From a virus: a stretch of 64,000 nucleotides of DNA. This document shows, one piece after another, positions 2,953-14,333 of the stretch. Made by a program: the position numbers and the translations under genes. Location: positions 1-64,000 of IMG/VR virus record IMGVR_UViG_3300020438_000030. One strand, 5' to 3'. The first letter of the stretch is position 1. Each line of letters begins with the position of its first letter. Under the pieces are notes generated by a model. It was given only the letters and a program-made list of their open reading frames with translations, made no database searches and was not told the origin of the DNA.

Positions 2953-3017
2953 CCTGGGCATTATGTCTTATTACTTGCGTTCTATTCCAGGGACGCCAAG
3001 ACTATGTAAGTCCCAGG
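2953..3017 (+). promoter_or_regulatory. Structured leader element, copy 1 (long inner hairpin)
   Basis: Outer helix CCTGGG (2953-2958) pairs with CCCAGG (3012-3017). Fixed strand CA follows the 5' side and GTAAGT precedes the 3' side. The insert forms its own hairpin: GTCTT pairs with AAGAC and GCGT with ACGC. This is the longest member of an eight-copy family. It precedes the ATG at 3053. Interpretation as an RNA structure is inferred from conserved pairing. Confidence 0.6.
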
Positions 3018-3052
3018 CTACACACCTCATTCAATTCAACGTTTCTAACACT

Positions 3053-3253
3053 ATGTCTCTCATCAAAACCTGGCTGCTTGAAGAACAGCGTCGTCAATTC
3101 GAAGTTGGTCAAGCTGAATACAAAGACTTTATGACCAAGTACACACAAGATCAGCAATTCATTCTTAATGATATTGCAGACGAACAAGAACAAATCATGC
3201 AAGAACTTATGTCAGAGGAGGTGGCAGGAGATGCCGACTACCACCAAGGATGA
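3053..3253 (+). CDS. Hypothetical coiled-coil protein, 66 aa
   Basis: The start at ATG 3053 is preferred over an in-frame ATG at 2963, which lies inside the structured leader element. The 3053 ATG follows CAATTCAACGTTTCTAACACT. The product is Glu/Gln/Asp-rich (LLEEQRRQFEVGQAEYKDF, then DEQEQIMQELMSEE) and should be almost entirely helical, probably a coiled coil. Function is unknown. Confidence 0.55.
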   Translation: MSLIKTWLLEEQRRQFEVGQAEYKDFMTKYTQDQQFILNDIADEQEQIMQELMSEEVAGDADYHQG

Positions 3254-3307
3254 TGTCATCTTGCACATCATTGTAATCATTTCAATTATTATCACTGAAT
3301 TAATCTC

Positions 3308-3652
3308 ATGCTTCCTCCAGAAACCTACGAAATCGCTCAAGCCCTCACTGGCTACGAAAAGTTCAGTGAAGAAGAATACCTGGAACAATGGGAAGCAACC
3401 GTCACCTACGACAGAGCAAAGCCCTGCAACAAGCCGCCCTTCAACGGCAGCATCAGCAAGGACAAAGAAGGCAAGCTCTGGTGCTACTGGATCCCAGTCC
3501 ATGACAACAAAGAGCTCCAAGGCTGGTACGAAATCCCGTGCAAAGAAGACATTGAAGACTATGTCCTTGGTTCATTAGCCTTTACACCTGGTGACCAAGA
3601 AGTTGAACCAGACCATCCTGATTCTTGGTTGAATCTTCTCTGTTTAATCTGA
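3308..3652 (+). CDS. Hypothetical protein, 114 aa
   Basis: Acidic, aromatic-rich protein (YEIAQALTGYEKF, KLWCYWIPVHD, LQGWYEIPCKED). The overlapping frame open from 3231 is Ser/Thr/Lys-rich low complexity and was judged a shadow. Codon choice here is more GC-rich in the first half than in neighbours. No family was recognised. A leader element follows 8 bases after the stop. Confidence 0.6.
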   Translation: MLPPETYEIAQALTGYEKFSEEEYLEQWEATVTYDRAKPCNKPPFNGSISKDKEGKLWCYWIPVHDNKELQGWYEIPCKEDIEDYVLGSLAFTPGDQEVEPDHPDSWLNLLCLI

Positions 3653-3659
3653 CCTAAGT

Positions 3660-3688
3660 CTGGGCATCCTTAACGGTGTAAGCCCCAG
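3660..3688 (+). promoter_or_regulatory. Structured leader element, copy 2
   Basis: CTGGG pairs with CCCAG. GGCA follows the 5' strand and GTAAG precedes the 3' strand, with a short inner hairpin around CTTAAC. It ends 17 bases before the ATG of the 112-residue gene. There is no T tract, so it is not a terminator. Confidence 0.6.
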
Positions 3689-3705
3689 ATATATAACTAA
3701 ATCTT

Positions 3706-4044
3706 ATGTCAACAACAATCAGAGTCTACAAAGATTGTGGTCCTTATTGGGATCCAGATACTGACATACATGTACTTCATAGCTTAGCCGATTTAATTGG
3801 CTGGGTTCGACATTACATGTCAGAAGAAATCCCAGACTGTATTGCTATCTACAACAATGATAATCTCATTGGTGGTTGGCTAGCAGAAGGAGATGCAGAG
3901 CCAGATGGTGAAGGGGGTATGTACCCTATTCACTGTGGTTATGAACGTGTTAGCCCCAATAGCTGGCACTGGACTAACAATCTTTTCAGACACACTTCCA
4001 AAATTACTCAAATGACAATTTTAAAAAGCAATGAATCAATCTGA
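3706..4044 (+). CDS. Hypothetical protein, 112 aa
   Basis: Acidic, Trp-rich soluble protein (CGPYWDPDTDIHVLHSLADL, GWVRHYMSEEIPDC). It begins 17 bases after a structured leader element, with no Shine-Dalgarno. Its last 14 bases overlap the next gene. Function is unknown. Confidence 0.6.
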   Translation: MSTTIRVYKDCGPYWDPDTDIHVLHSLADLIGWVRHYMSEEIPDCIAIYNNDNLIGGWLAEGDAEPDGEGGMYPIHCGYERVSPNSWHWTNNLFRHTSKITQMTILKSNESI

Positions 4045-4309
4045 AATGACAAAGCTTCACAAACAACAACTCAACATCAGATTACCTCAACATTGGTACA
4101 TTGATAAACTTGATGATCTTGCAGAACGCACAGGTCGCAGTCGTATTGATGTAGCACGTTCATTGCTTATGGCTGCTGTTGAAACTTGTTATCCAGAAGA
4201 AGGACCAATTATTACAGTAGAAGATGTTCCTAAGTTTGAAGACTTAATGGACATCTACACATGGTCCTGTTATGACAATGAACAACAAACACCTACTAAC
4301 GACAAATGA
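4031..4309 (+). CDS. Putative ribbon-helix-helix DNA-binding protein, 92 aa
   Basis: Residues about 14-50 (LNIRLPQHWYIDKLDDLAER, then TGRSRIDVARSLLMAAVE) fit a ribbon-helix-helix fold: a short beta strand, then two helices with a polar turn. This suggests a small transcriptional regulator that binds as a dimer. The C-terminus is acidic. An alternative start is ATG 4046. The N-terminal codons for MNQSE are repeated at the 4536 gene. The stop overlaps the next ATG (ATGA). Confidence 0.5.
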   Translation: MNQSEMTKLHKQQLNIRLPQHWYIDKLDDLAERTGRSRIDVARSLLMAAVETCYPEEGPIITVEDVPKFEDLMDIYTWSCYDNEQQTPTNDK

Positions 4310-4530
4310 CAGGACGCAATCGCTATCGTGTCAAGTACAGACATGAGCCACCAACAGATCCTGTACCTGGTCAAGATTATCTTCTTGGTGTAGGTACTTG
4401 GTCTGCCAATATTTATGCTCATGACATTGATGATGCACGGCACCAGATCCTAAAGAACTTTCCACGCAGAAAGTCTGATGGAAAAATGGTCCATAGAGTT
4501 ATTGTTTCTTGTCGCAAAATCTACTACTGA
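4306..4530 (+). CDS. Hypothetical basic protein, 74 aa
   Basis: ATGA overlap with the upstream RHH-like gene implies coupled translation. The product is basic (RNRYRVKYRHEPP, KNFPRRKSDGKMVHRVIV) with a central region LLGVGTWSANIYAHDIDDAR suggesting a small alpha/beta domain. No family was recognised. Confidence 0.55.
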   Translation: MTGRNRYRVKYRHEPPTDPVPGQDYLLGVGTWSANIYAHDIDDARHQILKNFPRRKSDGKMVHRVIVSCRKIYY

Positions 4531-4535
4531 ATTTA

Positions 4536-4697
4536 ATGAATCAATCTGAATACATACCACCACCGTCTTTAAAAGAACGTGGTGGTCGTAATCCTGTTAT
4601 GACAGTAGGCAACAGGCGTCCATGGAAAACTAAAGATCGTAAACGATCTAAATCCAAATCAAATCTAACAATCTTAACCAAACTTAACAATGAGTAA
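4536..4697 (+). CDS. Hypothetical basic peptide, 53 aa
   Basis: The ATG at 4536 repeats the 16-base start context of the 4031 gene (AATGAATCAATCTGAA), so both begin MNQSE. The rest is Arg/Lys-rich (NRRPWKTKDRKRSKSKSN) and probably disordered. Its last codons, which include ATCCAAATCAAA, also serve as the leader of the next gene at 4690. Confidence 0.45.
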   Translation: MNQSEYIPPPSLKERGGRNPVMTVGNRRPWKTKDRKRSKSKSNLTILTKLNNE

Positions 4698-4911
4698 ACC
4701 TGAAAAGTATTTGATTGAACCTATGACTGGTGTTGATCAAAGCATGGTCGAGTCACTTGCTAAAGTACTTGAGGTAATGCCGCACCAGATTATAGAGACT
4801 GCTCTGCATGAATGGCTTGAAGTTAACTTCATGCGTATCAATTCACTACATCGTAGTGCACAAGAGATCCACAATCAACTCAATCCCAAATCAAATGAAA
4901 CAGGAACATGA
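4690..4911 (+). CDS. Hypothetical protein, possible RHH-like regulator, 73 aa
   Basis: It overlaps the upstream gene by 8 bases. Residues about 15-47 (DQSMVESLAKVLEVMPHQII, then ETALHEWLEVNF) form two helices resembling the helical part of CopG/ribbon-helix-helix proteins, though the beta strand is less clear. The next ATG overlaps the stop (ATGA). Confidence 0.45.
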   Translation: MSKPEKYLIEPMTGVDQSMVESLAKVLEVMPHQIIETALHEWLEVNFMRINSLHRSAQEIHNQLNPKSNETGT

Positions 4912-5099
4912 AAAACTTTATTAATTCCTATTTAATTGATGTAGTAGATGATGATTATGCTGAAACGGGTTTGACCAAAAGTCAAATCGACGATGCAACT
5001 GAATACATCTACTGGGCGTACGACTGTACTGAAATGTACGAACAAATTGATCGTTTGCTCACGGCTTACCTTGCAACTCAATCCAAATCAAACTCATGA
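4908..5099 (+). CDS. Hypothetical acidic protein, 63 aa
   Basis: ATGA overlap on both sides places it inside a coupled cluster (4306-5374). The product is very acidic and Tyr-rich (VVDDDYAETG, EYIYWAYDCTEMYEQIDRLL). The C-terminus QSKSNS is encoded by the TCCAAATCAAA sequence that precedes the next start. Function is unknown. Confidence 0.5.
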   Translation: MKNFINSYLIDVVDDDYAETGLTKSQIDDATEYIYWAYDCTEMYEQIDRLLTAYLATQSKSNS

Positions 5100-5374
5100 C
5101 AACCAAATTTATTACTCCAAAAATCAATCTCAATGGTACTTCAGCAGAAACAATCTATGATGAACTTAATGAAGCAAGAGTAAAACTTAATCAAGCATTA
5201 AAAACATTACGACTTGTCACAGTGCATGGTCGAGACTTTCAGACCATGCCTGACCCTAATGCTACTTGGCTTCAAGCCAAAACAGAACATCACGAAGCTA
5301 TCAATCGTGTTGATGATGCATTAGATTGGGTTGACGCATGGATGGTAGCTATCCAAGAACAGATGTTCACTTGA
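5096..5374 (+). CDS. Hypothetical helical protein, 92 aa
   Basis: The ATG overlaps the upstream stop (ATGA). Mostly helical: ETIYDELNEARVKLNQALKT and HHEAINRVDDALDWVDAWMV suggest a helical hairpin. No membrane segment, no recognised family. Confidence 0.55.
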   Translation: MTTKFITPKINLNGTSAETIYDELNEARVKLNQALKTLRLVTVHGRDFQTMPDPNATWLQAKTEHHEAINRVDDALDWVDAWMVAIQEQMFT

Positions 5375-5402
5375 TCAAACCTATTCAATTCAATTCAAAC
5401 TC

Positions 5403-5675
5403 ATGGCTAAAAAACGCAGCGCTATCAACTTCCGCAAAACAATTTTCGGAATTGAAATCACAGAGAATGGTATACAATCTTTCGGTAAATCCGTAAAGCT
5501 TGGTCCTATTCAACTGTCTGGTAACATTGGACGGTCCGGTATCCTGGGATCTGTGGCGATCCCTGGAACCGGCATCAGCAAACGCAGAATTAAATTGGCT
5601 GACCTACCAGACTTCAACACACCTGACTTACCTGAACACAAGAACAAACCTGACATGTGGACTGAAGACGAATGA
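5403..5675 (+). CDS. DUF4236-like small protein, 90 aa
   Basis: The middle part, LSGNIGRSGILGSVAIPGTG followed by ISKRR, resembles the Gly-rich repeats and PGTGLS ending typical of DUF4236 proteins, whose role is unknown. The leader is TTCAATTCAATTCAAACTC directly before the ATG. The C-terminus is acidic. The stop overlaps the next ATG (ATGA). Confidence 0.5.
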   Translation: MAKKRSAINFRKTIFGIEITENGIQSFGKSVKLGPIQLSGNIGRSGILGSVAIPGTGISKRRIKLADLPDFNTPDLPEHKNKPDMWTEDE

Positions 5676-5866
5676 CGTACGTTTCCAAAGATCAAGTACC
5701 TGCTGATGCTGAAATCTTTACAGGACCCAAAGGCGGTACTTATTTCTACCGTGATGGTAAACGTATTTATATCTTCAGAGATAAGAAGAAAGGTCAAAGA
5801 CATACATTTAATCCTCGTAAAGGTAAATTCACTGAGTGGTTAGATAACCAACTCACACAACATTAA
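5672..5866 (+). CDS. Hypothetical basic protein, 64 aa
   Basis: ATGA overlap with the upstream gene. The product is basic and aromatic, with FTGPKGGTYFYRDGKRIYIF as its most distinctive part, a beta-hairpin-like segment often seen in small phage proteins. It ends the gene block; a hairpin (5881-5898) and a structured leader element follow. Confidence 0.5.
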   Translation: MTYVSKDQVPADAEIFTGPKGGTYFYRDGKRIYIFRDKKKGQRHTFNPRKGKFTEWLDNQLTQH

Positions 5867-5880
5867 GAAATGATAAAGCC

Positions 5881-5898
5881 CCCTGCACCCCCGCAGGG
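5881..5898 (+). other. GC-rich stem-loop at end of gene block
   Basis: CCCTGC (5881-5886) pairs with GCAGGG (5893-5898). It lies 15 bases after a stop codon, without a T tract. It may protect the 3' end or act as a weak terminator. Confidence 0.4.
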
Positions 5899-5940
5899 AC
5901 CACCAAGAATACTTATATACCTTTAAGTAAATACTTCTAT

Positions 5941-5973
5941 CTAGGCATTGTCCCCCCTACATGTAAGCCCTAG
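5941..5973 (+). promoter_or_regulatory. Structured leader element, copy 3
   Basis: Outer helix is CTAGG with CCTAG, a compensatory change from the CTGGG/CCCAG of other copies. The fixed GGCA and GTAAG strands are kept. The inner part TTGTCCCCCCTACAT pairs poorly, so this copy has the weakest inner hairpin. The ATG of the next gene is at 6002. Confidence 0.55.
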
Positions 5974-6001
5974 ACTTCTGTTGTTCATTCAATCTCATCT
6001 C

Positions 6002-6247
6002 ATGCTTCAACCCAATGATCCAACCATCTATGACACTCTTGAACGAATGGAGTTGTTTGGCGGTGGCTTTGTTGCCAAGTTGGTAGCTGCTTTTAAGCAT
6101 GCTGATCAACGTAACAAAGAACGTATCATCGCTGCTTTTCCAGAACTCTTTGAAGAGTACGGACCTAACAGTGTCTTTGCTTCTAAAGATTCTTCTATCC
6201 AATCTATGGGTTATTCCATGGTCAAACATCTCAGTATACGAAAGTAA
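6002..6247 (+). CDS. Hypothetical protein, 81 aa
   Basis: The start at ATG 6002 follows the leader CATTCAATCTCATCTC; the longer frame from TTG 5948 would run through the leader element. The product is helical (YDTLERMELFGGGFVAKLVA, then DQRNKERIIAAFPELFEEYG). This sequence type, with a Gly-Gly-Gly turn between helices, is common in small phage proteins of unknown role. Confidence 0.6.
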   Translation: MLQPNDPTIYDTLERMELFGGGFVAKLVAAFKHADQRNKERIIAAFPELFEEYGPNSVFASKDSSIQSMGYSMVKHLSIRK

Positions 6248-6249
6248 TT

Positions 6250-6549
6250 ATGTCTATTATCAACATCATTGATCTTGAAGAAGATCTAGTAACACATGAA
6301 TCAATTCATTACATCGTCACTGCAATGGTTGCAGACAAACGTCTTGCCCGGCCTGCTGTCTATCACCCAGCAGATCTGGCTTCGCCTGAAGAGTATGGCC
6401 CTGGTGTTTGTTCAGCAGGGTTTGAAATTTTGCTTGGCGACAATCCTCCGCCAACCTTGGGTAGTCCTGTAGATCTACTCAATTACATTCAAGACTTAAA
6501 TCTTGACTGGCAACTAGACGAATACCCGTATCATTATGGAAGCTTCTAG
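6250..6549 (+). CDS. Hypothetical protein, 99 aa
   Basis: It starts 2 bases after the previous stop, so the two are probably cotranslated. Acidic product with an N-terminal LEEDLVTHESIHYIVTAMVA and Pro-rich middle. No recognised domain. Confidence 0.55.
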   Translation: MSIINIIDLEEDLVTHESIHYIVTAMVADKRLARPAVYHPADLASPEEYGPGVCSAGFEILLGDNPPPTLGSPVDLLNYIQDLNLDWQLDEYPYHYGSF

Positions 6550-6595
6550 TCATGCCTTGCAAAAACCTACGCAACAGTTAAACTGATTGCACAAA

Positions 6596-6643
6596 CCTAG
6601 GCAGCCGAGTGACATCCTTGTCGCGGCTAGGCGTAAGTCCTAA
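6596..6643 (+). promoter_or_regulatory. Structured leader element, copy 4 (directly upstream of tRNA)
   Basis: CCTAGGCA starts the element and GTAAGTCCTA ends it. The inner hairpin is long: GCCG pairs with CGGC, with ACA/TGT inside. The 3' strand ends CCTAA instead of CCTAG, so the outer helix is one pair shorter. It is the only copy that precedes a tRNA (6 bases downstream) rather than a start codon. Confidence 0.5.
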
Positions 6644-6649
6644 AACATT

Positions 6650-6737
6650 GGGAGTGTGGCGGAATTGGTAGACGCATCAGACTTAAAATCTGTGGACTGT
6701 TACAGTCGTGCGAGTTCAAGTCTCGCCACTCCTACCA
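6650..6737 (+). tRNA. tRNA-Leu(UAA)
   Basis: Cloverleaf readable by eye: acceptor GGGAGTG/CACTCCT with the first pair G-U, D-loop with GGTAGACGC, anticodon arm CAGA-CTTAAAA-TCTG with anticodon TAA at 6684-6686, a long variable arm (GGACTGTTACAGTC) as expected for tRNA-Leu, T-loop GTTCAAG, and an encoded CCA end. It decodes UUA, a frequent codon in this AT-rich genome. Confidence 0.95.
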
Positions 6738-6771
6738 AACACTTAGTATTCATTATTAATTCTATTTTTCA

Positions 6772-7443
6772 ATGCAAGATAATGTCTCACTCATCTGGGC
6801 TACACAAAATGCTGAACCACTCATTGTAGAGATGGCTCGCGTTAGTGCTCCAGCTAATGCAAAGAACGTCTCAACTGGTCCCAGGTTGTTAAAGTATCTT
6901 ATTAAACAAAAGCATTGGTCACCATTTCAAATGGCATCAATGTGTGTAGAGATACGTACAACCAGAGGGATTAGTCCTCAAATTTTACGTCATTCATCCT
7001 TTGGTTTCCAAGAATTTTCACAACGCTATGCAAACAGCAACGCTATTGGTAGTCCCCAGCTACCTCATTTACGCGCACAAGATCACAAGAACAGACAAAA
7101 CAGTACAGATGATTTACAACAAAAGTTAGGTAAGCCAAGGCTTTCTGATTTTTACAGACGTATAGGTATCTTGTATGAAGATGCTGAACATCTGTATCAA
7201 GAAATGCTTAGTGCTGGTGTTGCAAAAGAATCAGCACGTTTTGTATTACCTTTGTCTGCGCCCACAAAATTATTTATGTGCGGCACACTCAGATCATGGC
7301 TCCATTACATAGACTTGCGTACTGCTAATGGTACGCAACAAGAACACAAAGAGATAGCTGAGCAATGCAAGGCTATCTTTCAACAACAATTCCCTATTAT
7401 TTCGGAGGCAATGTGGGACGCCACTATCACCAAACACTCATGA
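6772..7443 (+). CDS. thyX: Flavin-dependent thymidylate synthase ThyX
   Basis: ThyX makes dTMP from dUMP using methylenetetrahydrofolate and FAD/NADPH, supplying thymidine for phage DNA. At 223 residues the size is normal. The signature region at 71-86 reads ILRHSSFGFQEFSQRY. The FQEFSQRY part fits cyanobacterial and phage ThyX, but the usual RHR is RHS here (Ser75). The C-terminal region LRTANGTQQEHKEIAEQ matches the second substrate-binding segment, normally R..AQ.E. It lies downstream of tRNA-Leu, and its stop overlaps the next ATG. Confidence 0.9.
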   Translation: MQDNVSLIWATQNAEPLIVEMARVSAPANAKNVSTGPRLLKYLIKQKHWSPFQMASMCVEIRTTRGISPQILRHSSFGFQEFSQRYANSNAIGSPQLPHLRAQDHKNRQNSTDDLQQKLGKPRLSDFYRRIGILYEDAEHLYQEMLSAGVAKESARFVLPLSAPTKLFMCGTLRSWLHYIDLRTANGTQQEHKEIAEQCKAIFQQQFPIISEAMWDATITKHS

Positions 7444-7760
7444 CACTTACGTGTAAATGTTGTGGTACAGACTTTACACGTAAAACAAAGCTTGAAGCTT
7501 ATCGTATTAGACATAAAAAGTCAGGTCCTTATTGCAGTAAAAGCTGTGCTTCTAAAAGCAAACGAGATTATGCACGTGCTTCTGGTTTAGAACATCCAAA
7601 CACTATTCTTACTGAACAAGATGTTAGAACAATACGTATGCAATTCAAACACGGTGTACCAGTAAAGAACATAATGATTCTTACTGGTATGTCTGAGAAT
7701 TGTATTCGTTCAATCTTGTATAGAAAAACATGGAAACATGTGGAGGATTATGTCGCTTGA
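7440..7760 (+). CDS. Zinc-finger plus helix-turn-helix DNA-binding protein, 106 aa
   Basis: The ATG overlaps the thyX stop (ATGA). The N-terminus has a zinc-ribbon-like pattern, CKCC at residues 5-8 and CSKSC at about 32-36. The C-terminus, LTEQDVRTIRMQFKHGVPVK and SENCIRSILYRKTWKHV, is the helix-turn-helix commonly attached to phage HNH endonucleases (NUMOD-like). No HNH catalytic core is present, so this may be a regulator or a remnant of a homing endonuclease. Confidence 0.6.
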   Translation: MTLTCKCCGTDFTRKTKLEAYRIRHKKSGPYCSKSCASKSKRDYARASGLEHPNTILTEQDVRTIRMQFKHGVPVKNIMILTGMSENCIRSILYRKTWKHVEDYVA

Positions 7761-7938
7761 ATTAGAAGATGCTCTCCATCTTATTTATAAAGGTCAAACT
7801 AATGTAGCTGTTATGGCAAAAAAATTAGGCATCTCATTAGAAGAAATGAAACGCCTATTTGGTTTGTATGTAAGCCAACGTCCTATTGATCCGGACATAT
7901 GGCAAGCCGATGTAGAACCAAGCTGGCCTTGGGCTTAA
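7750..7938 (+). CDS. Small HTH-like conserved cyanophage protein, 62 aa
   Basis: The start at ATG 7750 has a rare clear Shine-Dalgarno (GGAGG) 4 bases upstream; the ATG at 7738 is less likely. NVAVMAKKLGISLEEMKRLF looks like a helix-turn-helix. The ending RPIDPDIWQADVEPSWPWA is, from memory, a conserved cyanophage tail sequence. A regulatory role is possible but unproven. Confidence 0.6.
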   Translation: MSLELEDALHLIYKGQTNVAVMAKKLGISLEEMKRLFGLYVSQRPIDPDIWQADVEPSWPWA

Positions 7939-8084
7939 ACGACTTGTCCTTTCATTCGTTCACGATCAAGTTTTGCTTCAAACTCTTCACGTTGTTTCTT
8001 TAACCTTTCATTGGTCATCCAAATGAGCAAAGGGTTAGTACGTTCGTACTTAACACCTCGATAGGTCAGTGTCTTGGTAGACAT
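7935..8084 (-). CDS. DUF4278-family protein, 49 aa
   Basis: It begins MSTKTLTYRGVKYERTNP; LTYRGVKYE is the hallmark of DUF4278, a small family typical of cyanobacteria and their phages, function unknown. The chosen start has GGAGG upstream; the longer frame to 8201 would read through a palindromic region. It is isolated on the minus strand within a plus-strand arm and converges with the 7750 gene (4-base overlap). The upstream region holds CAGGT/ACCTG and CCCCA/TGGGG inverted repeats. Confidence 0.75.
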   Translation of the reverse strand: MSTKTLTYRGVKYERTNPLLIWMTNERLKKQREEFEAKLDRERMKGQVV

Positions 8085-8166
8085 GATGTCCTCCGCTAAA
8101 ACCCAGGTCCCGTTCCCTACCTGGTGAATTGCGCCCCAATGGGGTGAACGTCTTTTTATTATAGTC

Positions 8167-8195
8167 CTGGGCAGCCTTAGTGGTATAAGTCCTAG
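8167..8195 (+). promoter_or_regulatory. Structured leader element, copy 5
   Basis: CTGGG faces CCTAG, giving one G-U pair in the outer helix. GGCA is fixed; the 3' strand is ATAAGT rather than GTAAGT. The inner hairpin is GCC-TTAGT-GGT. It lies 24 bases before the ATG of the GP88-like gene, and the spacer is a run of CTCAA repeats. Confidence 0.6.
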
Positions 8196-8219
8196 ACTCA
8201 ACTCAACTCAACTTAACTC

Positions 8220-8990
8220 ATGCACACACTAAAACTTTCCAAAGGTAATGCCAAACTTGGTAAACGCCTTATCTTTTCATTACCAGCAGGATATACATGC
8301 CCTAATGCTGGTCATTGCAAAACATTTGCAGACAGAGTTACTGGTACAATTTCAGATTTACCTATGGCAGCTAATGCTTCTGGTCCTGAATACAGATGCT
8401 TTGCTGCTATGTCAGAAGCACGTAGTAAAAACTGTCGTGATGCACGTTGGTATAACTGGGATATCCTTAAAGAATTATTGTATAGTCCAGACGTAAGAAA
8501 TCCTCAAGGTGCAATAGAAGATACAATTGCTTATGCAATATGGCAGCATAATAACAAGAAGTTTATATACGATTTGTTTCGCATCCATGAGTCAGGTGAT
8601 TTTTGGTCTGAGATTTATTTCAAAGCATGGCTTGAAGTTGCAAGACAACATCCAAAAATTAAATTCTATGCTTACACTAAACAACTTCAGTACTGGCTCA
8701 ACAATCAAGATGCTATTCCTTCTAACTTCTTTCTCACTGCTTCAGTTGGCGGTAATCTCGACCCTCTCTTAAATAAATACAGACATGTATTTAAACGTAT
8801 TGCTTATGTAGTCTATACAGAACAAGAAGCTATTGACATGGGATTAGAAATAGACCATGATGACAGTCATTGTTTTGGTGACAAACCTTTTGCTTTATTA
8901 GTTCATAGTGTTCAACGTAAAGGTTCTGATGCATCTAAAGCATTAAGTGCACGTAAACGTCAGGGTTCTTGGACAGGATATAGCAAATAA
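8220..8990 (+). CDS. GP88-family phage protein, 256 aa
   Basis: From memory this matches the Pfam family Gene product 88 of phages: TCPNAGHCKTFA near residue 25, a central FRIHESGDFWSEIYFKAW and FYAYTKQ. Function is not established; the CP.AG.C cluster and conserved Cys/His residues could bind metal or an iron-sulfur cluster. It sits between thyX and the DNA polymerase, so a role in nucleotide or DNA metabolism is plausible. The leader is four CTCAA-type repeats after a structured element. Confidence 0.75.
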   Translation: MHTLKLSKGNAKLGKRLIFSLPAGYTCPNAGHCKTFADRVTGTISDLPMAANASGPEYRCFAAMSEARSKNCRDARWYNWDILKELLYSPDVRNPQGAIEDTIAYAIWQHNNKKFIYDLFRIHESGDFWSEIYFKAWLEVARQHPKIKFYAYTKQLQYWLNNQDAIPSNFFLTASVGGNLDPLLNKYRHVFKRIAYVVYTEQEAIDMGLEIDHDDSHCFGDKPFALLVHSVQRKGSDASKALSARKRQGSWTGYSK

Positions 8991-9044
8991 CAAGTTGCAT
9001 AATTGTGCAGAACAGATATTATTTATGTGTTCTGCATTTATTTT

Positions 9045-9278
9045 ATGGCTTATTTAATTACAACTTATTTAGAAGACATACCTCATGCCATTATTCCTAA
9101 TCCTTCTGCTAAACGTTTTGAATTAATTCCTATTGTAAAAGACTCTCAAGTTTCAAAAGCATTTTGTTCTCCTAACAAAACAGGTGCTATGAGTATACTT
9201 AACTGGATCAATGACAATGACACAGAACTTGCTTCAAAAAACCTTTCTGTTCAACCTGAAGCCAAGTTCTTCTGCTGA
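9045..9278 (+). CDS. Hypothetical protein, 77 aa
   Basis: The ATG at 9045 is chosen over the TTG at 9003. The product begins MAYLITTYLEDIPHAIIPNP and has a mixed, soluble composition. Its last 68 bases overlap the DNA polymerase start at 9211 in another frame. Function is unknown, perhaps related to the polymerase it precedes. Confidence 0.5.
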   Translation: MAYLITTYLEDIPHAIIPNPSAKRFELIPIVKDSQVSKAFCSPNKTGAMSILNWINDNDTELASKNLSVQPEAKFFC

Positions 9279-11079
9279 AAAATGGTACGTATTTGATATA
9301 GAAACTAACGGACTTTATGATGATGTTAATGAAATCTTCTGCATCGTTATCTACGATGTCACGCGACAACAAACTATTACTTACGGGCCTGACTCTATTG
9401 ACAGTGCTATTGATGCTCTCAATGGTGCTGATGTACTTATCGGTCATAACATAATTTTCTATGATATTCCTGTCCTACAAAAATTAAAACCATCTTTTGT
9501 TTTAAACAAACAACATGTCATTGATACACTCATCTGCACACGACTCATCTGGCCGAAAGAAAAGTTATTCGAATCGGATACAGCTTCATACACACGTGTG
9601 CCAGGTGGACTCAAAGGGTCAGCTTCACTCAAAGCTTGGGGTCATAGGTTATCCGACTACAAAATTGAGTTTAAAGATTTCTCGTCTTTTTCTCAAGACA
9701 TGTTGTCCTACTGTATACAAGACGTCAATGTCACAACCAAGCTTTTCGAACATATCCAAAAGCAAACCATTGCAGAAAGCTCGCTTCAACTGGAACATAT
9801 TTTTGCATCCTGTATTGAGAGACAGATTAGATCAGGTTTTCCTTTTGATATTGATGCAGCTCTTAATTTTGTGGATGAACTTGAATGTAAAAAACAAATA
9901 TTAGAAAAAGAATTAATTAATTTGTTTCCTCCTATTGAACATGAAGAATGGTTTACTCCTAAAGTAAATAATGTTTCTCGTGGTTATATAAAAGGACAAC
10001 CGTTTTGTAAGAAACGTATTGAAGTTTTTAATCCTGGTTCACGTCAACAAATTGTAGAACGATTAAAACAAAAATATAATTGGATTCCTGAAACTAAAAC
10101 AGAGAAGGGAAATCCAGTTCTTAACGATGATGTTCTAGAAAAACTTCCATACCCTGAAGCTAAACCTTTAGCTGAATACATGTTACTCAAAAAAAGATTA
10201 GGTCAACTCAAAGATGGAAACAATGCATGGATCAAGCTTGTATCTCCTGATGGTTATATTCACGGTGACGTCATTACTAATGGCTGTATTACTGGCCGTT
10301 GTAGCCACCGTAATCCAAACACAGCCCAAATTCCAGCAGCTTATAGTCCATATGGAAAAGAATGCCGTTCTTTATTTCATGCTCCTAATGATTGGATCCT
10401 TATTGGTTCTGATGCTAAAGCCTTGGAACTTCGTTGTCTTGCAGGGTACTTAGCTTTTTGGGATGAAGGAGAATATGGGCAAATGGTTACTGATGATTCA
10501 GTTGATATTCATACATACAATCAAGAAAAGTTTGGTGTTGAAACAAGAGACATAAGTAAACGACTTCTCTATGCAGTTCTTTATGGTGCTGGTTTTCTTA
10601 AAGCAGGTAGCATTGTAGATCCTAATGAAAAGAATCCTGATGTACTTAAAAGATTAGGTAAGACTGCTATCAATTCTTTTATGACGGGAGTTCCAGCTCT
10701 TCAACAACTTAAAAATAAACTAGCAGAAAACTTAATTGCGCGTGGTTATTTACTTGGTTTAGATAGAAGACCTTTGTATTGTCGTTCTGATTTTAAAGCT
10801 TTAAATGTATTACTGCAATCTTGTGGTGCAATTTTAATGAAGCAAGTTGTAGTTAACATCCATAAGAATTTAACAAAAGCTTGTTTTGTTTATGGTCAAG
10901 ACTGGCAGCAACATGGAATGATCCATGATGAAATCCAACTCAGCTGCAGACCAGGACTTGAAAAAGAAATCATTCGTCTTGTTCTATCAGCTTTCCCTAT
11001 GGCTGGTGAAACATTTGATTTTCAATGTAAGATTGAAGGCGATGCCAAGACTGGATATACTTGGTACGATACACACTGA
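9211..11079 (+). CDS. polA: Family A DNA polymerase (T7-like replicative type)
   Basis: 622 residues. N-terminal 3'-5' exonuclease: DIE at 29-31 (exo I), HN..FYD around 79-85 (exo II) and Y167..D171 (exo III). Polymerase: motif A SDAKALELR with D401, motif B R446..K450...Y454...YG, motif C HDE at 572-574. There is no 5' nuclease domain, as in T7 polymerase. Tyr454 aligns with T7 Tyr526 (E. coli Phe762), a residue associated with virulent phages. The start (ATG 9211 or 9217) overlaps the upstream gene. The SSB gene follows. Confidence 0.95.
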   Translation: MTMTQNLLQKTFLFNLKPSSSAEKWYVFDIETNGLYDDVNEIFCIVIYDVTRQQTITYGPDSIDSAIDALNGADVLIGHNIIFYDIPVLQKLKPSFVLNKQHVIDTLICTRLIWPKEKLFESDTASYTRVPGGLKGSASLKAWGHRLSDYKIEFKDFSSFSQDMLSYCIQDVNVTTKLFEHIQKQTIAESSLQLEHIFASCIERQIRSGFPFDIDAALNFVDELECKKQILEKELINLFPPIEHEEWFTPKVNNVSRGYIKGQPFCKKRIEVFNPGSRQQIVERLKQKYNWIPETKTEKGNPVLNDDVLEKLPYPEAKPLAEYMLLKKRLGQLKDGNNAWIKLVSPDGYIHGDVITNGCITGRCSHRNPNTAQIPAAYSPYGKECRSLFHAPNDWILIGSDAKALELRCLAGYLAFWDEGEYGQMVTDDSVDIHTYNQEKFGVETRDISKRLLYAVLYGAGFLKAGSIVDPNEKNPDVLKRLGKTAINSFMTGVPALQQLKNKLAENLIARGYLLGLDRRPLYCRSDFKALNVLLQSCGAILMKQVVVNIHKNLTKACFVYGQDWQQHGMIHDEIQLSCRPGLEKEIIRLVLSAFPMAGETFDFQCKIEGDAKTGYTWYDTH

Positions 11080-11082
11080 TTA

Positions 11083-11110
11083 CTGGGCATTCTTAGTATG
11101 TAAGTCCCAG
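11083..11110 (+). promoter_or_regulatory. Structured leader element, copy 6
   Basis: CTGGG pairs with CCCAG; GGCA and GTAAGT are kept; the inner hairpin is CAT-TCTTAGT-ATG. It begins 3 bases after the DNA polymerase stop and ends 23 bases before the ssb ATG. Confidence 0.6.
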
Positions 11111-11133
11111 ATTTCTGATCCAACTTTAAACTC

Positions 11134-11979
11134 ATGAATCAAGTATTCGTTTGTGCTCAAGCTACAGAAGATCCAAAAGAAATTTATTTGGATTCTTCCA
11201 GGACTGCACTTAAAGTAAAAGTACAACTGCCTCCTATTAGTGCTAACAAAGCACCCACAGAGTTGTACTATCATATCTTTCAAGATCAAGCACGCTGGCG
11301 TTCATTAATCAAAGCAGGTACTTGTCTGTTTATTTATGGTGCAAAGTTACACCATGACTTGGAAGCACGTGAACATTCTATTCATGGTGGTAATCCAGCT
11401 ATTGTTGATGATTCCTTTCCTATTTACAACTCAGTTATTTTGACAGGTCGTGTTGCAAAAGATCCTGATCAAACTAATCCAATGACATTTAAAACTACTG
11501 ACAGTGGTTTGATGATTGCCAATATGAGTATGACAGTGAGTAAAGGGAAAGCATCTGCTGATCTTTTTAACTTTACTTCTATGAATAAAATGAATGACGC
11601 ATTTAGACCTGCTGAACTTTTAGTTAATCTTTGCAAAAAAGGAACTGGCATTACTATTCAAGGCCAGTTAATTACTGACAGTTGGTTTGATCACAAATCA
11701 AAACAACAACGATATAACACTAAGATTCAAATGAAACAGATGACATTAGCTCCTAAAACAGAGTTAACATCTAATTCAATTAAGCCAACCACAACAATAG
11801 CTACTGACATTGAACCTAAACCACTCTGGGGTGGACGTACTGCTGAATCAGAGCCAGTAGAAACTTCTGTTTCTGAACCTGTAAAACCAATGGCTGTTGC
11901 TGAACCTTGGGGTGAATCTACTAATGGTTTACCTTCATTACCTGTTAATGATTCAACCAGTTCAAAGGAACCCTTTTGA
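11134..11979 (+). CDS. ssb: Single-stranded DNA-binding protein with two OB folds
   Basis: 281 residues. The second half holds a typical SSB OB fold: YNSVILTGRVAKDPDQ at about 96, then IANMSMTVSKGK, LFNFTS, and TGITIQGQLITDSWFDH. The first about 95 residues look like a second, more diverged OB-like domain. A disordered Pro/Ser/Thr/Glu-rich tail follows and ends KEPF, recalling the acidic-Pro-Phe tip that recruits replication partners. It lies just after the DNA polymerase, so it probably coats DNA in the phage replisome. Confidence 0.8.
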   Translation: MNQVFVCAQATEDPKEIYLDSSRTALKVKVQLPPISANKAPTELYYHIFQDQARWRSLIKAGTCLFIYGAKLHHDLEAREHSIHGGNPAIVDDSFPIYNSVILTGRVAKDPDQTNPMTFKTTDSGLMIANMSMTVSKGKASADLFNFTSMNKMNDAFRPAELLVNLCKKGTGITIQGQLITDSWFDHKSKQQRYNTKIQMKQMTLAPKTELTSNSIKPTTTIATDIEPKPLWGGRTAESEPVETSVSEPVKPMAVAEPWGESTNGLPSLPVNDSTSSKEPF

Positions 11980-11995
11980 GCTAAGCTACCACCAT

Positions 11996-12025
11996 CTAGG
12001 CAGTCGTTAACGACGTAAGACCTAG
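11996..12025 (+). promoter_or_regulatory. Structured leader element, copy 7
   Basis: CTAGG pairs with CCTAG. The inner hairpin GTCG-TTAA-CGAC is perfect and is closed by a C-G pair with a bulged A. GGCA and GTAAG are fixed; the next base is A (GTAAGA). It ends 26 bases before the ATG at 12052. Confidence 0.65.
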
Positions 12026-12051
12026 ATATTCACACTAGTCCGACGGACTTT

Positions 12052-13170
12052 ATGACACCGATCAAAACAGCAACCAAGTCTACAGCGCTCAGTTTATTTC
12101 CAGAAACATCATCCATTGTTGTTCAAAAAGCTCCAGAACAACGTTCACTTGATTCCTTTTTACATCTCACACAACCTGAGTTTATAGGAGCTGCTCCATC
12201 CCCTGGACAAATTATTGCTCTTAACAAACCAAATGATCGTGCTCATTCACGTGATACTGGTGGCTTGTTTATTAAACAAGAAGATCTAATTAAATGTGCT
12301 TGGAAAGCATCTGCTTCTGATCTTGAACCTGCCTCATTTATCCAACCTTACAAACAAAAGTTTGGTGGTAATGATGAACCAAATGCAGGTATTCTTTTTA
12401 CTAAACCACGGTTCCAGATTGTTTTTGAAACTGCTGGTTTACTTGAGAAGAATGTTGTAGATGAAAAGACAGGATCTAATAAGTCAGTAATCATTGGCTC
12501 GTTTAATCCTGCAGATAACTTATCTGATTCAGGTAAAATTAATATGCTGTGGGATATGTATAACGAAAATAAAAAAGACCATACAATTCGTACTTGGTAC
12601 TATGTTTATTTCATGAGTGGTTATGGCCAACGGTGTCATGAACTTCCTTTGATTCTTAGTATTAAAGGTGCTGTTGGTGCTTCTTTTAGAGATCAACTGA
12701 AAGCATTTAGAGATGATGTAGGTTCTGCTTTAGCAGCTGCTACTAAAACTCCTAAGCGTCCTGCTAACTATGATGCTTATGCGCAGTACATTTTCCAACC
12801 CCATCTTGAATTAAAAGATGTAGGTCAAGGAAACAATCAATCAACAGCGGTAACAGCTTTTGATTATGAACATCCTCTTTATGATCAAGGTCAAGAAGCT
12901 GCTTTAGTTTCTTTGGATTCTCATATTATTCCTGACAATCTAAAGACAATTACGTCTGAAGAACGTCAAGATGAATATGCTATTGGCATGATGAGCCGTT
13001 ACACAGATGGTAATGGTTTCATCAACATTGCAGATGGTGTACAAATTACACCTATGGGAATCATGCCACCTATGCTTAAGGAGTCTTCTAGCAATTTGTT
13101 AGAAAGTTCTATGCCTAACAAGATGCTTGCATCTGCTCGTGATTCATTCGGAGCTGACTCTAAGTTCTGA
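12052..13170 (+). CDS. DUF5895-like hypothetical protein, 372 aa
   Basis: Large soluble protein. Segments such as GGLFIKQEDLIKCAW and AGILFTKPRFQIVFE recall, tentatively, the cyanobacterial/cyanophage DUF5895 family, whose role is unknown. It is downstream of DNA polymerase and SSB, preceded by its own structured leader element, so a role in replication or recombination is inferred from context only. No catalytic motif was recognised. Confidence 0.6.
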   Translation: MTPIKTATKSTALSLFPETSSIVVQKAPEQRSLDSFLHLTQPEFIGAAPSPGQIIALNKPNDRAHSRDTGGLFIKQEDLIKCAWKASASDLEPASFIQPYKQKFGGNDEPNAGILFTKPRFQIVFETAGLLEKNVVDEKTGSNKSVIIGSFNPADNLSDSGKINMLWDMYNENKKDHTIRTWYYVYFMSGYGQRCHELPLILSIKGAVGASFRDQLKAFRDDVGSALAAATKTPKRPANYDAYAQYIFQPHLELKDVGQGNNQSTAVTAFDYEHPLYDQGQEAALVSLDSHIIPDNLKTITSEERQDEYAIGMMSRYTDGNGFINIADGVQITPMGIMPPMLKESSSNLLESSMPNKMLASARDSFGADSKF

Positions 13171-13359
13171 TTCCATACGGTCTAGTGAATCTCTTACTAG
13201 ACCTTTAATCACGCATTGACGGGTCGCAGCTAGCTTGACAAGCATAGTTGCGATCTGTTTTAATTCATATACTGAGTTACAGTCTTCGATGGCACGTTCC
13301 ATCTTGACCTTCCAGAATTCTTCTTCTGGGCTTGATTCAAAACTCAGCATTTCATTCAA
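13144..13359 (-). CDS. Hypothetical helical protein, 71 aa (minus strand)
   Basis: Acidic N-terminus (MLSFESSPEEEFWKVKMERA) followed by helices. It lies between two plus-strand genes, converging with the 12052 gene (27-base overlap) and ending its 5' side 20 bases before the 13380 start. Composition is protein-like rather than a shadow. An isolated antisense gene; function unknown. Confidence 0.5.
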   Translation of the reverse strand: MNEMLSFESSPEEEFWKVKMERAIEDCNSVYELKQIATMLVKLAATRQCVIKGLVRDSLDRMESELRVSSE

Positions 13360-13379
13360 TTTTATTCTTTATTCTAACC

Positions 13380-14312
13380 ATGACTACAACAATTGAACAG
13401 TTAAATTCAGGTCAACGCATTATATATTCTCGTTCAAATATACGCAGAACATTTGCAGACTTTGATGATACAGATATATCAGGGATGTATTTAAATCCTG
13501 ATGATCTTGTAGTTGTTTATAACGATGGAACAGAGAAAGAATTTAATACACGTCCTATTAAAGAAACCTTCAAAGACTTTCGTTCTCGTTGTCCTGACTT
13601 CTTTGCTTACCTTGGTCCTGATTTAAAAGGTCCTAGTTTCTGGCGTAACAATTGTTATGTCTTATATAAAGGTTGGAACTATCAATTTCAAGGTTCATAT
13701 CGTTTGCCTCAAGCAATTATGCAACAGAAATGGGGAGACAAACTTCAACTAATAGAAAATGAAGAGGGCATGAAAGCTTTCTTAAATAATCCTGACTACG
13801 GTTTTGGTTATTTAATTGCACCTGATGGTGTGCTTTTACCTGCTCCTCCTTTGTCTATTGATGATTCAGATGAGATTGCGCAAGAACCTGACTTATCTCC
13901 TTACTGTTCTTGTGGTTCTTTTCTCCAGCAAAAAGAAGTATTGAATGAAATACAAGAAGAAATACCAGGTTATGAACTTACCTGTAAACATCTCACATGG
14001 ATCAATCGTTATCGAGAGTTTCTTTCTAAACGATCAGCTTTAATAGAATCTAAGCCAGGAATGATTGAGAAAGCTACAGCTTGGTCTTATGCTCCACCAC
14101 CATCTGGAGAACAACTTGGTCAACTACAAATTTTGTATACAACATCAGGTAAGATGGCTCCCATTAACAAATGGCGTATCTATAAAAAGGATGTGCGTTA
14201 CACCCAACATGATGCTTGGGATTTGTTTGATGCCATGTTAGAAAATGAGTTTGTTCCTTTTCCTGCTCCAGCTTTAACTCAACTCAAACCTTTCTTTAGC
14301 AAGAAAAACTAG
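13380..14312 (+). CDS. Hypothetical protein with SWIM-like zinc motif, 310 aa
   Basis: The ATG 13380 start follows TTCTTTATTCTAACC; the longer frame from 13332 overlaps the minus-strand gene. C176, C178, C202 and H204 form CxC-x23-CxH, the pattern of SWIM zinc fingers, which bind DNA or proteins. The N-terminal half (VVVYNDGTEKEF, FFAYLGPDLKG) may be a separate alpha/beta domain. The stop codon is part of the next structured leader element. Confidence 0.6.
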   Translation: MTTTIEQLNSGQRIIYSRSNIRRTFADFDDTDISGMYLNPDDLVVVYNDGTEKEFNTRPIKETFKDFRSRCPDFFAYLGPDLKGPSFWRNNCYVLYKGWNYQFQGSYRLPQAIMQQKWGDKLQLIENEEGMKAFLNNPDYGFGYLIAPDGVLLPAPPLSIDDSDEIAQEPDLSPYCSCGSFLQQKEVLNEIQEEIPGYELTCKHLTWINRYREFLSKRSALIESKPGMIEKATAWSYAPPPSGEQLGQLQILYTTSGKMAPINKWRIYKKDVRYTQHDAWDLFDAMLENEFVPFPAPALTQLKPFFSKKN

Positions 14313-14333
14313 GCAGCTTTGCGTAAGTCCTAG
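14309..14333 (+). promoter_or_regulatory. Structured leader element, copy 8 (minimal)
   Basis: CTAGG pairs with CCTAG; the inner hairpin is just GC-TTT-GC. This shortest copy shows which parts are fixed: GGCA and GTAAGT. It overlaps the preceding stop codon and ends 27 bases before ATG 14361. Confidence 0.6.

Follow-up and report, generated by a model that had tools for sequence, protein, structure and literature searches.

A compact structured RNA recurs between genes, tRNAs and VIPR units of cyanophages and may mark sites of transcript processing

We asked what is signaled by a small folded element that recurs eight times between the genes of a single virus related to cyanophages. The window, meaning the whole stretch of DNA analysed here, comprises 64,000 bases out of the 67,369-base virus record IMGVR_UViG_3300020438_000030, and its DNA polymerase is 65% identical to the counterpart in Synechococcus phage S-EIV1. 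A sequence-only reading of this DNA had described eight plus-strand copies of a leader element of early genes, with base changes that preserve pairing. All eight were recovered on the plus strand, with slightly corrected helix coordinates (starts at 2954 and 6597; Table 1), and no further copies were found elsewhere in the 67-kb record by a covariance-model search. The comparison with related phages showed a conserved structured RNA whose base changes are compensatory, and we propose, tentatively, that it punctuates phage transcripts by directing their processing. To our knowledge, no study has addressed how long transcripts are converted into separate RNAs in cyanophage lineages such as S-EIV1.

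Written as RNA, the consensus reads NNNGG-CA-[stem-loop]-RUAAGY-CCNNN. The outer helix, of 5 bp or more, is followed by an asymmetric internal loop, in which CA lies opposite RUAAGY, and by an inner stem-loop that varies in length (7 to 45 nucleotides (nt) in the window) and sequence. The smallest inner cores have 6-9 nt and a 5-6-bp outer helix; the smallest copies are 25 nt long with a single internal loop. The outer helix had been given as CTGGG/CCCAG or CTAGG/CCTAG, which held for most copies but not for copy 4 (CTAGG/CCTAA, with a C/A mismatch as its outermost pair) or copy 5 (CTGGG/CCTAG, with one G-U pair). In copy 1 the adjoining C2953-G3017 adds a sixth outer pair, and in copy 7 an A stands in place of the Y ahead of the 3' arm.

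Table 1. Copies of the element and the adjoining tRNA gene in the window. R1 is a covariance model from whose building the long copy 1 was left out.
Feature	Position	Strand	Sequence	Context	Score
Copy 1	2954..3016	+	CTGGG-CA-[45-nt arm]-GTAAGT-CCCAG	stop 6 nt upstream; ATG at 3053, gap 36 nt	31.1 bits (R1)
Copy 2	3660..3688	+	CTGGG-CA-[TCCTTAACGGT]-GTAAGC-CCCAG	stop 7 nt upstream; ATG at 3706, gap 17 nt	44.0 bits; part of R1
Copy 3	5941..5973	+	CTAGG-CA-[TTGTCCCCCCTACAT]-GTAAGC-CCTAG	stop 74 nt upstream; ATG 28 nt downstream	
Copy 4	6597..6643	+	CTAGG-CA-[long stem-loop]-GTAAGT-CCTAA	stop 47 nt upstream; tRNA-Leu(UAA) 6 nt downstream	19.1 bits; not in R1
tRNA-Leu (anticodon UAA)	6650..6737	+		preceded by copy 4	
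Copy 5	8167..8195	+	CTGGG-CA-[GCCTTAGTGGT]-ATAAGT-CCTAG	divergent intergenic region; GP88-family gene at 8220, gap 24 nt	
Copy 6	11083..11110	+	CTGGG-CA-[TTCTTAGTAT]-GTAAGT-CCCAG	DNA polymerase stop 3 nt upstream; SSB gene 23 nt downstream	
Copy 7	11996..12025	+	CTAGG-CA-[GTCGTTAACGAC]-GTAAGA-CCTAG	between SSB and DUF5895 genes; stop 16 nt upstream, next start 26 nt downstream	
Copy 8 (smallest)	14309..14333	+	CTAGG-CA-[GCTTTGC]-GTAAGT-CCTAG	ATG 27 nt downstream	

The element exceeded chance expectation within the window, and the strong evidence came from elsewhere. The window contains six matches to GGCAN{3,30}TAAGYCC, whereas 100 shuffled versions averaged 1.09 and always had fewer than six. 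Exact-pattern searches of IMG/VR returned at least 120 stretches with paired CTGGG/CCCAG arms, 74 with CTAGG/CCTAG and 115 with CTTGG/CCAAG, whereas keeping the loop and mispairing the helix (CTTGG/CCCAG) left 11 and keeping the helix paired with a scrambled loop left 6. Pairing of the helix and identity of the loop are therefore both under selection. The sequence-only reading had named a covariance-model search of cyanophage genomes as a check; in the contigs already matched it added copies that the exact patterns had missed, giving as many as ten in one virus, and it located two in the cultured phage S-EIV1 (KJ410740, 41437-41477 and 40727-40786, both on the minus strand). An alignment of all eight window copies by MAFFT was misaligned by the variable stems, and the short copies and covariance models were used instead.

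The pairing evidence extends into the inner stem. Among 224 distinct cores, stem positions 2, 3 and 4 were Watson-Crick in 91, 82 and 82%, compared with 46, 35 and 26% when partners were shuffled, and in all 214 cores of at least 9 nt the first position was either U-U (60%) or a Watson-Crick or G-U pair. Covariation scores were likewise raised (0.257 versus 0.083 and 0.310 versus 0.113) and consistent with the pair counts, with the caveat that models were used to fit these alignments, and fitting to a structure biases an alignment in its favor. The invariance of the two inner GG/CC pairs is no evidence, because the scan pattern had fixed them. GNRA and UNCG tetraloops are stable in RNA, and both were enriched among the four-base loops: 10 of 60 were GNRA against 1.1 expected (P 2e-7), and 6 of 60 were UNCG against 0.5 expected (P 1e-5). 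Because inner stems pair far beyond shuffles and the loops are rich in GNRA and UUCG, the element acts as RNA. Folding of single copies was weak (z from -0.4 to -3.4 over the window copies), and an alternative inner pairing of CUUA with UAAG was possible in several of them and preferred by three; the case for the element therefore relies on comparison. Taken together, the paired and mispaired counts, the covariation scores and the inner-stem pairing bear out the compensatory changes that had been claimed.

Where the element lies is also constrained. Stops of open reading frames (ORFs) within 0-15 nt upstream were on the same strand as the element in 153 cases and on the opposite strand in 21, and an ATG 10-45 nt downstream was on the same strand in 159 cases versus 16. 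For intergenic copies with codirectional genes on both sides, the gap from stop to element was 3 or 4 nt in 71 of 215 and 0 or 1 nt in none, and the gap from element to start peaked at 25-34 nt. Of the 62 distinct tRNAs in these contigs, 50 are preceded by the element (49 tRNA-Leu(UAA) and one tRNA-Asn), 44 of them at a distance of 3-4 nt. The window fits this picture in part: the next start mostly follows within 17-36 nt and one copy precedes the tRNA, as had been stated, but the placement after a stop codon is strict only for the copies at 2954, 3660, 11083 and 14309. In the last, the 5' arm CTAGG itself contains the TAG stop of the upstream ORF; the copies at 11996, 6597 and 5941 stand farther off, and that at 8167 lies in a divergent region.

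This divergent copy heads a GP88-family gene and has no codirectional gene directly upstream, and the element is therefore not merely a feature of 3' untranslated regions. It shares its intergenic region, back to back, with a Glutamine-II riboswitch at 8102-8153, which lies on the minus strand before a small minus-strand gene and so belongs to the opposite strand and another gene. Description as a leader element of early genes proved too narrow. The element does precede early genes and the tRNA in the window, but in relatives it also lies 3' of psbA and a short ORF, directly before an intrinsic terminator (contigs like L197), ahead of a major capsid gene (L021-like contigs) and at VIPR units. 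Judged by these contexts it is general between cistrons. At the junction of DNA polymerase and SSB, copies are kept at the orthologous place while their inner stems have changed. The relative L002 has, at 3578-5455, one more gene (602 codons) accompanied by an element; both are lost from the window (6549-6596), where the last codons of the gene remain. This loss was a deletion that left the 3' tail of the gene and not an exchange at elements. A tandem pair of elements, 8 nt apart, was seen in another contig (L063, 353-425), and a strong hairpin with GTGCAAGCGGAACC and AGGGGTGCAATCCCCCT lies in a short intergenic gap of the window at about 481-518.

A gene of PHROG 4652 precedes the element in one set of cyanophage contigs. 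By its profile this gene hits PDB entry 36pp, 'SUSP1 Vipr protein' (E 1e-38), and its predicted structure (pLDDT 89) matches Csm/Cas7-type subunits. VIPR, described in 2026, comprises a phage RAMP protein and guide RNAs that are built of alternating GGY/NN pentanucleotides and end in a structured tail, and in some VIPR arrays hammerhead ribozymes are interspersed (PMC13142463). The element begins 3-4 nt past the vipr stop in 17 of 23 Vipr loci, with three more recovered through covariance-model or looser matches, and in arrays such as that of contig L163 it is repeated at the head of each guide-RNA-like unit. The tracts of L163 have a five-base period (lag-5 identity 0.454 versus a shuffle maximum of 0.329), and no Rfam hammerhead was found in the cyanophage arrays of L163, L030 and L149. 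Standing at the head of VIPR units, where other arrays carry hammerheads, the element thus occupies the spot where processing is expected.

Several observations accompany these arrays. The unit, [element]-[five-base-period tract]-[3' hairpin], was seen in L163 (2242-3640), L168, L019, L030, L149 and others, and the pentanucleotide consensus of L163-type tracts is TT-based, not GGY-based. Copies spaced by about 145 bp had been considered as tRNA arrays, but no tRNAs are present and the spacing is that of VIPR units. Gordonia phage MakoManhole (L281, 2884-3145) has guide-RNA-like GGC tracts after a Vipr homologue; their end resembles a tRNA T-arm plus acceptor mini-helix (GGGGTTCGACTCC..CACCCGAGC) and is a possible RNase P substrate. 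Most copies, those of the window included, sit in phages without a detectable Vipr; since no homologue was detected among ORFs of at least 100 aa in the window lineage, the window element is by context not a VIPR guide RNA (vrRNA). DUF5895 was rejected as a remote Vipr for want of similarity, and a peptide-pattern search of IMG/VR found no DUF5895 relatives.

Known classes did not account for the element. Rfam 15 was applied to the window at the gathering cut-off, to its early region with E up to 10, and to nine relative loci. No family matched the element in any of these searches, known ribozymes and riboswitches included, and the earlier failure to recognise a known class stands. What Rfam did find in the window was the tRNA and the Glutamine-II riboswitch, the remaining matches at permissive thresholds being chance. 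As had been noted, no T tract follows any of the eight copies; a terminator scan of the window flagged none of them either, and they are not intrinsic terminators. Nor are they a repeated sigma-70 promoter: by -10/-35 hexamers, promoter-like sites were fewer in the window than in shuffles, and none coincided with a copy. The cyanophage RNAs manA, wcaG and PhotoRC-II (PMC2864571, Rfam) are likewise structured, and some lie near psbA, but the element is far smaller, is repeated along an operon, lies downstream rather than upstream of psbA and matches none of these families. The papers found by a search on cyanophage RNA motifs describe structures that differ from it. Intercistronic RNA signals are known as a kind; none of the sources searched contains this structure.

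The element is widespread in cyanophage contigs. Those that bear it form several groups with fewer than three ORFs in common between groups. The covariance model found no copy in P-SSM4, P-SSM2, S-SSM7, Syn30, S-BM3, Syn9 or S-PM2, nor in P-SSP7, Syn5, P-SCSP2, S-CBWM1, S-TIM5, S-SCSM1 or S-B43. Membership in a host regulatory system was rejected: bacterial genomes yielded 41 matches to the exact pattern, fewer than the roughly 105 expected by a uniform-composition estimate; one of these was cyanobacterial (Nostoc) and none was picocyanobacterial. Among 292 cyanobacterial genomes there were three weak matches, of which one seems real. It is an element-like hairpin on the minus strand of a 2.5-Mb cyanobacterial genome (L285, 1501-1533), 4 nt after a tyrosine integrase gene, and probably represents an integrated element.

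G makes up 5.8% of the leaders that follow the element, and 1 of 81 such leaders carries a Shine-Dalgarno core, versus 91 of 670 for other genes. G-poor leaders of the same kind also stand before many element-free genes of the same phages. In the window and its relatives such leaders show a five-base period and lack a Shine-Dalgarno core, e.g. CTCAACTCAACTCAACTTAACTC before 8220. The periodicity was dismissed as a sign of short guides, since element-free G-poor leaders are periodic too.

One structure that lies between cistrons and before three unlike kinds of RNA is best explained by RNA processing. We therefore favor the reading, possible though not one in which we place firm confidence, that the element is a punctuation signal separating the cistrons of phage transcripts, where either a nuclease or the element itself makes the cut. 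The conserved internal loop would serve for recognition, and an endonuclease of host or phage origin would cleave the RNA at the element or next to it; self-cleavage is the less likely alternative. The cut would free the downstream unit, be it an mRNA whose open leader is poor in G and about 28 nt long, a tRNA with a 3-4-nt leader or a Vipr guide RNA, and the upstream RNA would keep the hairpin at its 3' end. In function the element would then resemble the hammerheads of VIPR arrays, which occupy equivalent positions between guide-RNA units but differ in fold and conserved nucleotides (PMC13142463), or the early-gene RNase III (R) sites of phage T7, though with a fold of its own. Like the R sites, it forms intercistronic hairpins in an early operon a short way before the next start. 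The T7 sites are RNA-level hairpins repeated between early cistrons with long double-stranded stems, unlike the element, whose inner stem may have 2-3 bp, whose specific internal loop is conserved and whose cleavage is presumed. Several points weigh against processing. An inner stem of 2-3 bp is too small for a classical RNase III substrate; the copy after psbA precedes an intrinsic terminator, where cutting has no evident need; and the divergent copy at 8167 has no upstream cistron to separate. Furthermore, the T4-like and T7-like cyanophages of the same hosts among those scanned lack the element, and its near absence from host genomes leaves no known host enzyme that reads it.

The main rival, which we consider doubtful, dispenses with cleavage: a host or phage protein would hold the internal loop, and the hairpin would block exonucleases at transcript ends or keep the leader behind it open for initiation. 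A distance of 3-4 nt from the upstream stop, the copy before the terminator after psbA, and leaders nearly devoid of a Shine-Dalgarno core would all suit such a role, but translation is irrelevant before tRNAs and guide-RNA units, and many element-free genes have similar leaders. The psbA copy would also suit a role in transcription, with the nascent RNA prompting antitermination or pausing of RNA polymerase in the manner of put RNA from phage HK022; so would the many copies along one operon and the fact that no accompanying phage protein was identified. Sites of the put type are promoter-proximal and few, whereas the element recurs ahead of single genes, a tRNA and guide units, with fixed spacings of 3-4 nt; with no excess of terminators between the window copies, this role is unlikely.

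We regard as slightly less probable still a self-cleaving ribozyme of a new and very small kind, with the CA/GUAAG internal loop as its catalytic center. About a dozen invariant nucleotides amid freely variable helices would fit a ribozyme, but the smallest copies have 25 nt and one internal loop, and nothing indicates which bond would be cut; we know of no natural self-cleaving ribozyme of that size. The loop presumably resembles the A730 loop of the VS ribozyme in sequence. In that ribozyme A730, C755 and A756 are important (PMC4598650). The position also fits, the element filling the hammerhead slot of other VIPR arrays (PMC13142463). It is correspondingly improbable that this is the smallest natural self-cleaving RNA and a new class, with which unrelated cyanophages release mRNAs, a tRNA and VIPR guide RNAs from long transcripts. 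A recombination site that works as single-stranded DNA, such as integron attC, would share the palindromic arms, variable terminal loop, placement just past stop codons and cassette-like arrays, and the extra gene-plus-element unit of L002 could be read in that way. Such a site is disfavored because the tetraloops are of the RNA type and the deletion in the window bypassed the elements; with orthologous placement kept at DNA polymerase/SSB while inner stems change, we consider it very improbable. Least probable of all is a small-molecule riboswitch. A conserved loop 17-36 nt ahead of start codons recalls one, but the element serves unrelated genes, a tRNA and guide RNAs, shows no consistent expression platform and matches no Rfam riboswitch.

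If processing is indeed its role, a cleavage element with a 25-nt footprint would be useful for multi-RNA constructs. For the phages themselves, a single structure links mRNA, tRNA and VIPR guide RNA, and the element provides a compact, recurring candidate signal for the splitting of long cyanophage transcripts that is present in a cultured phage.

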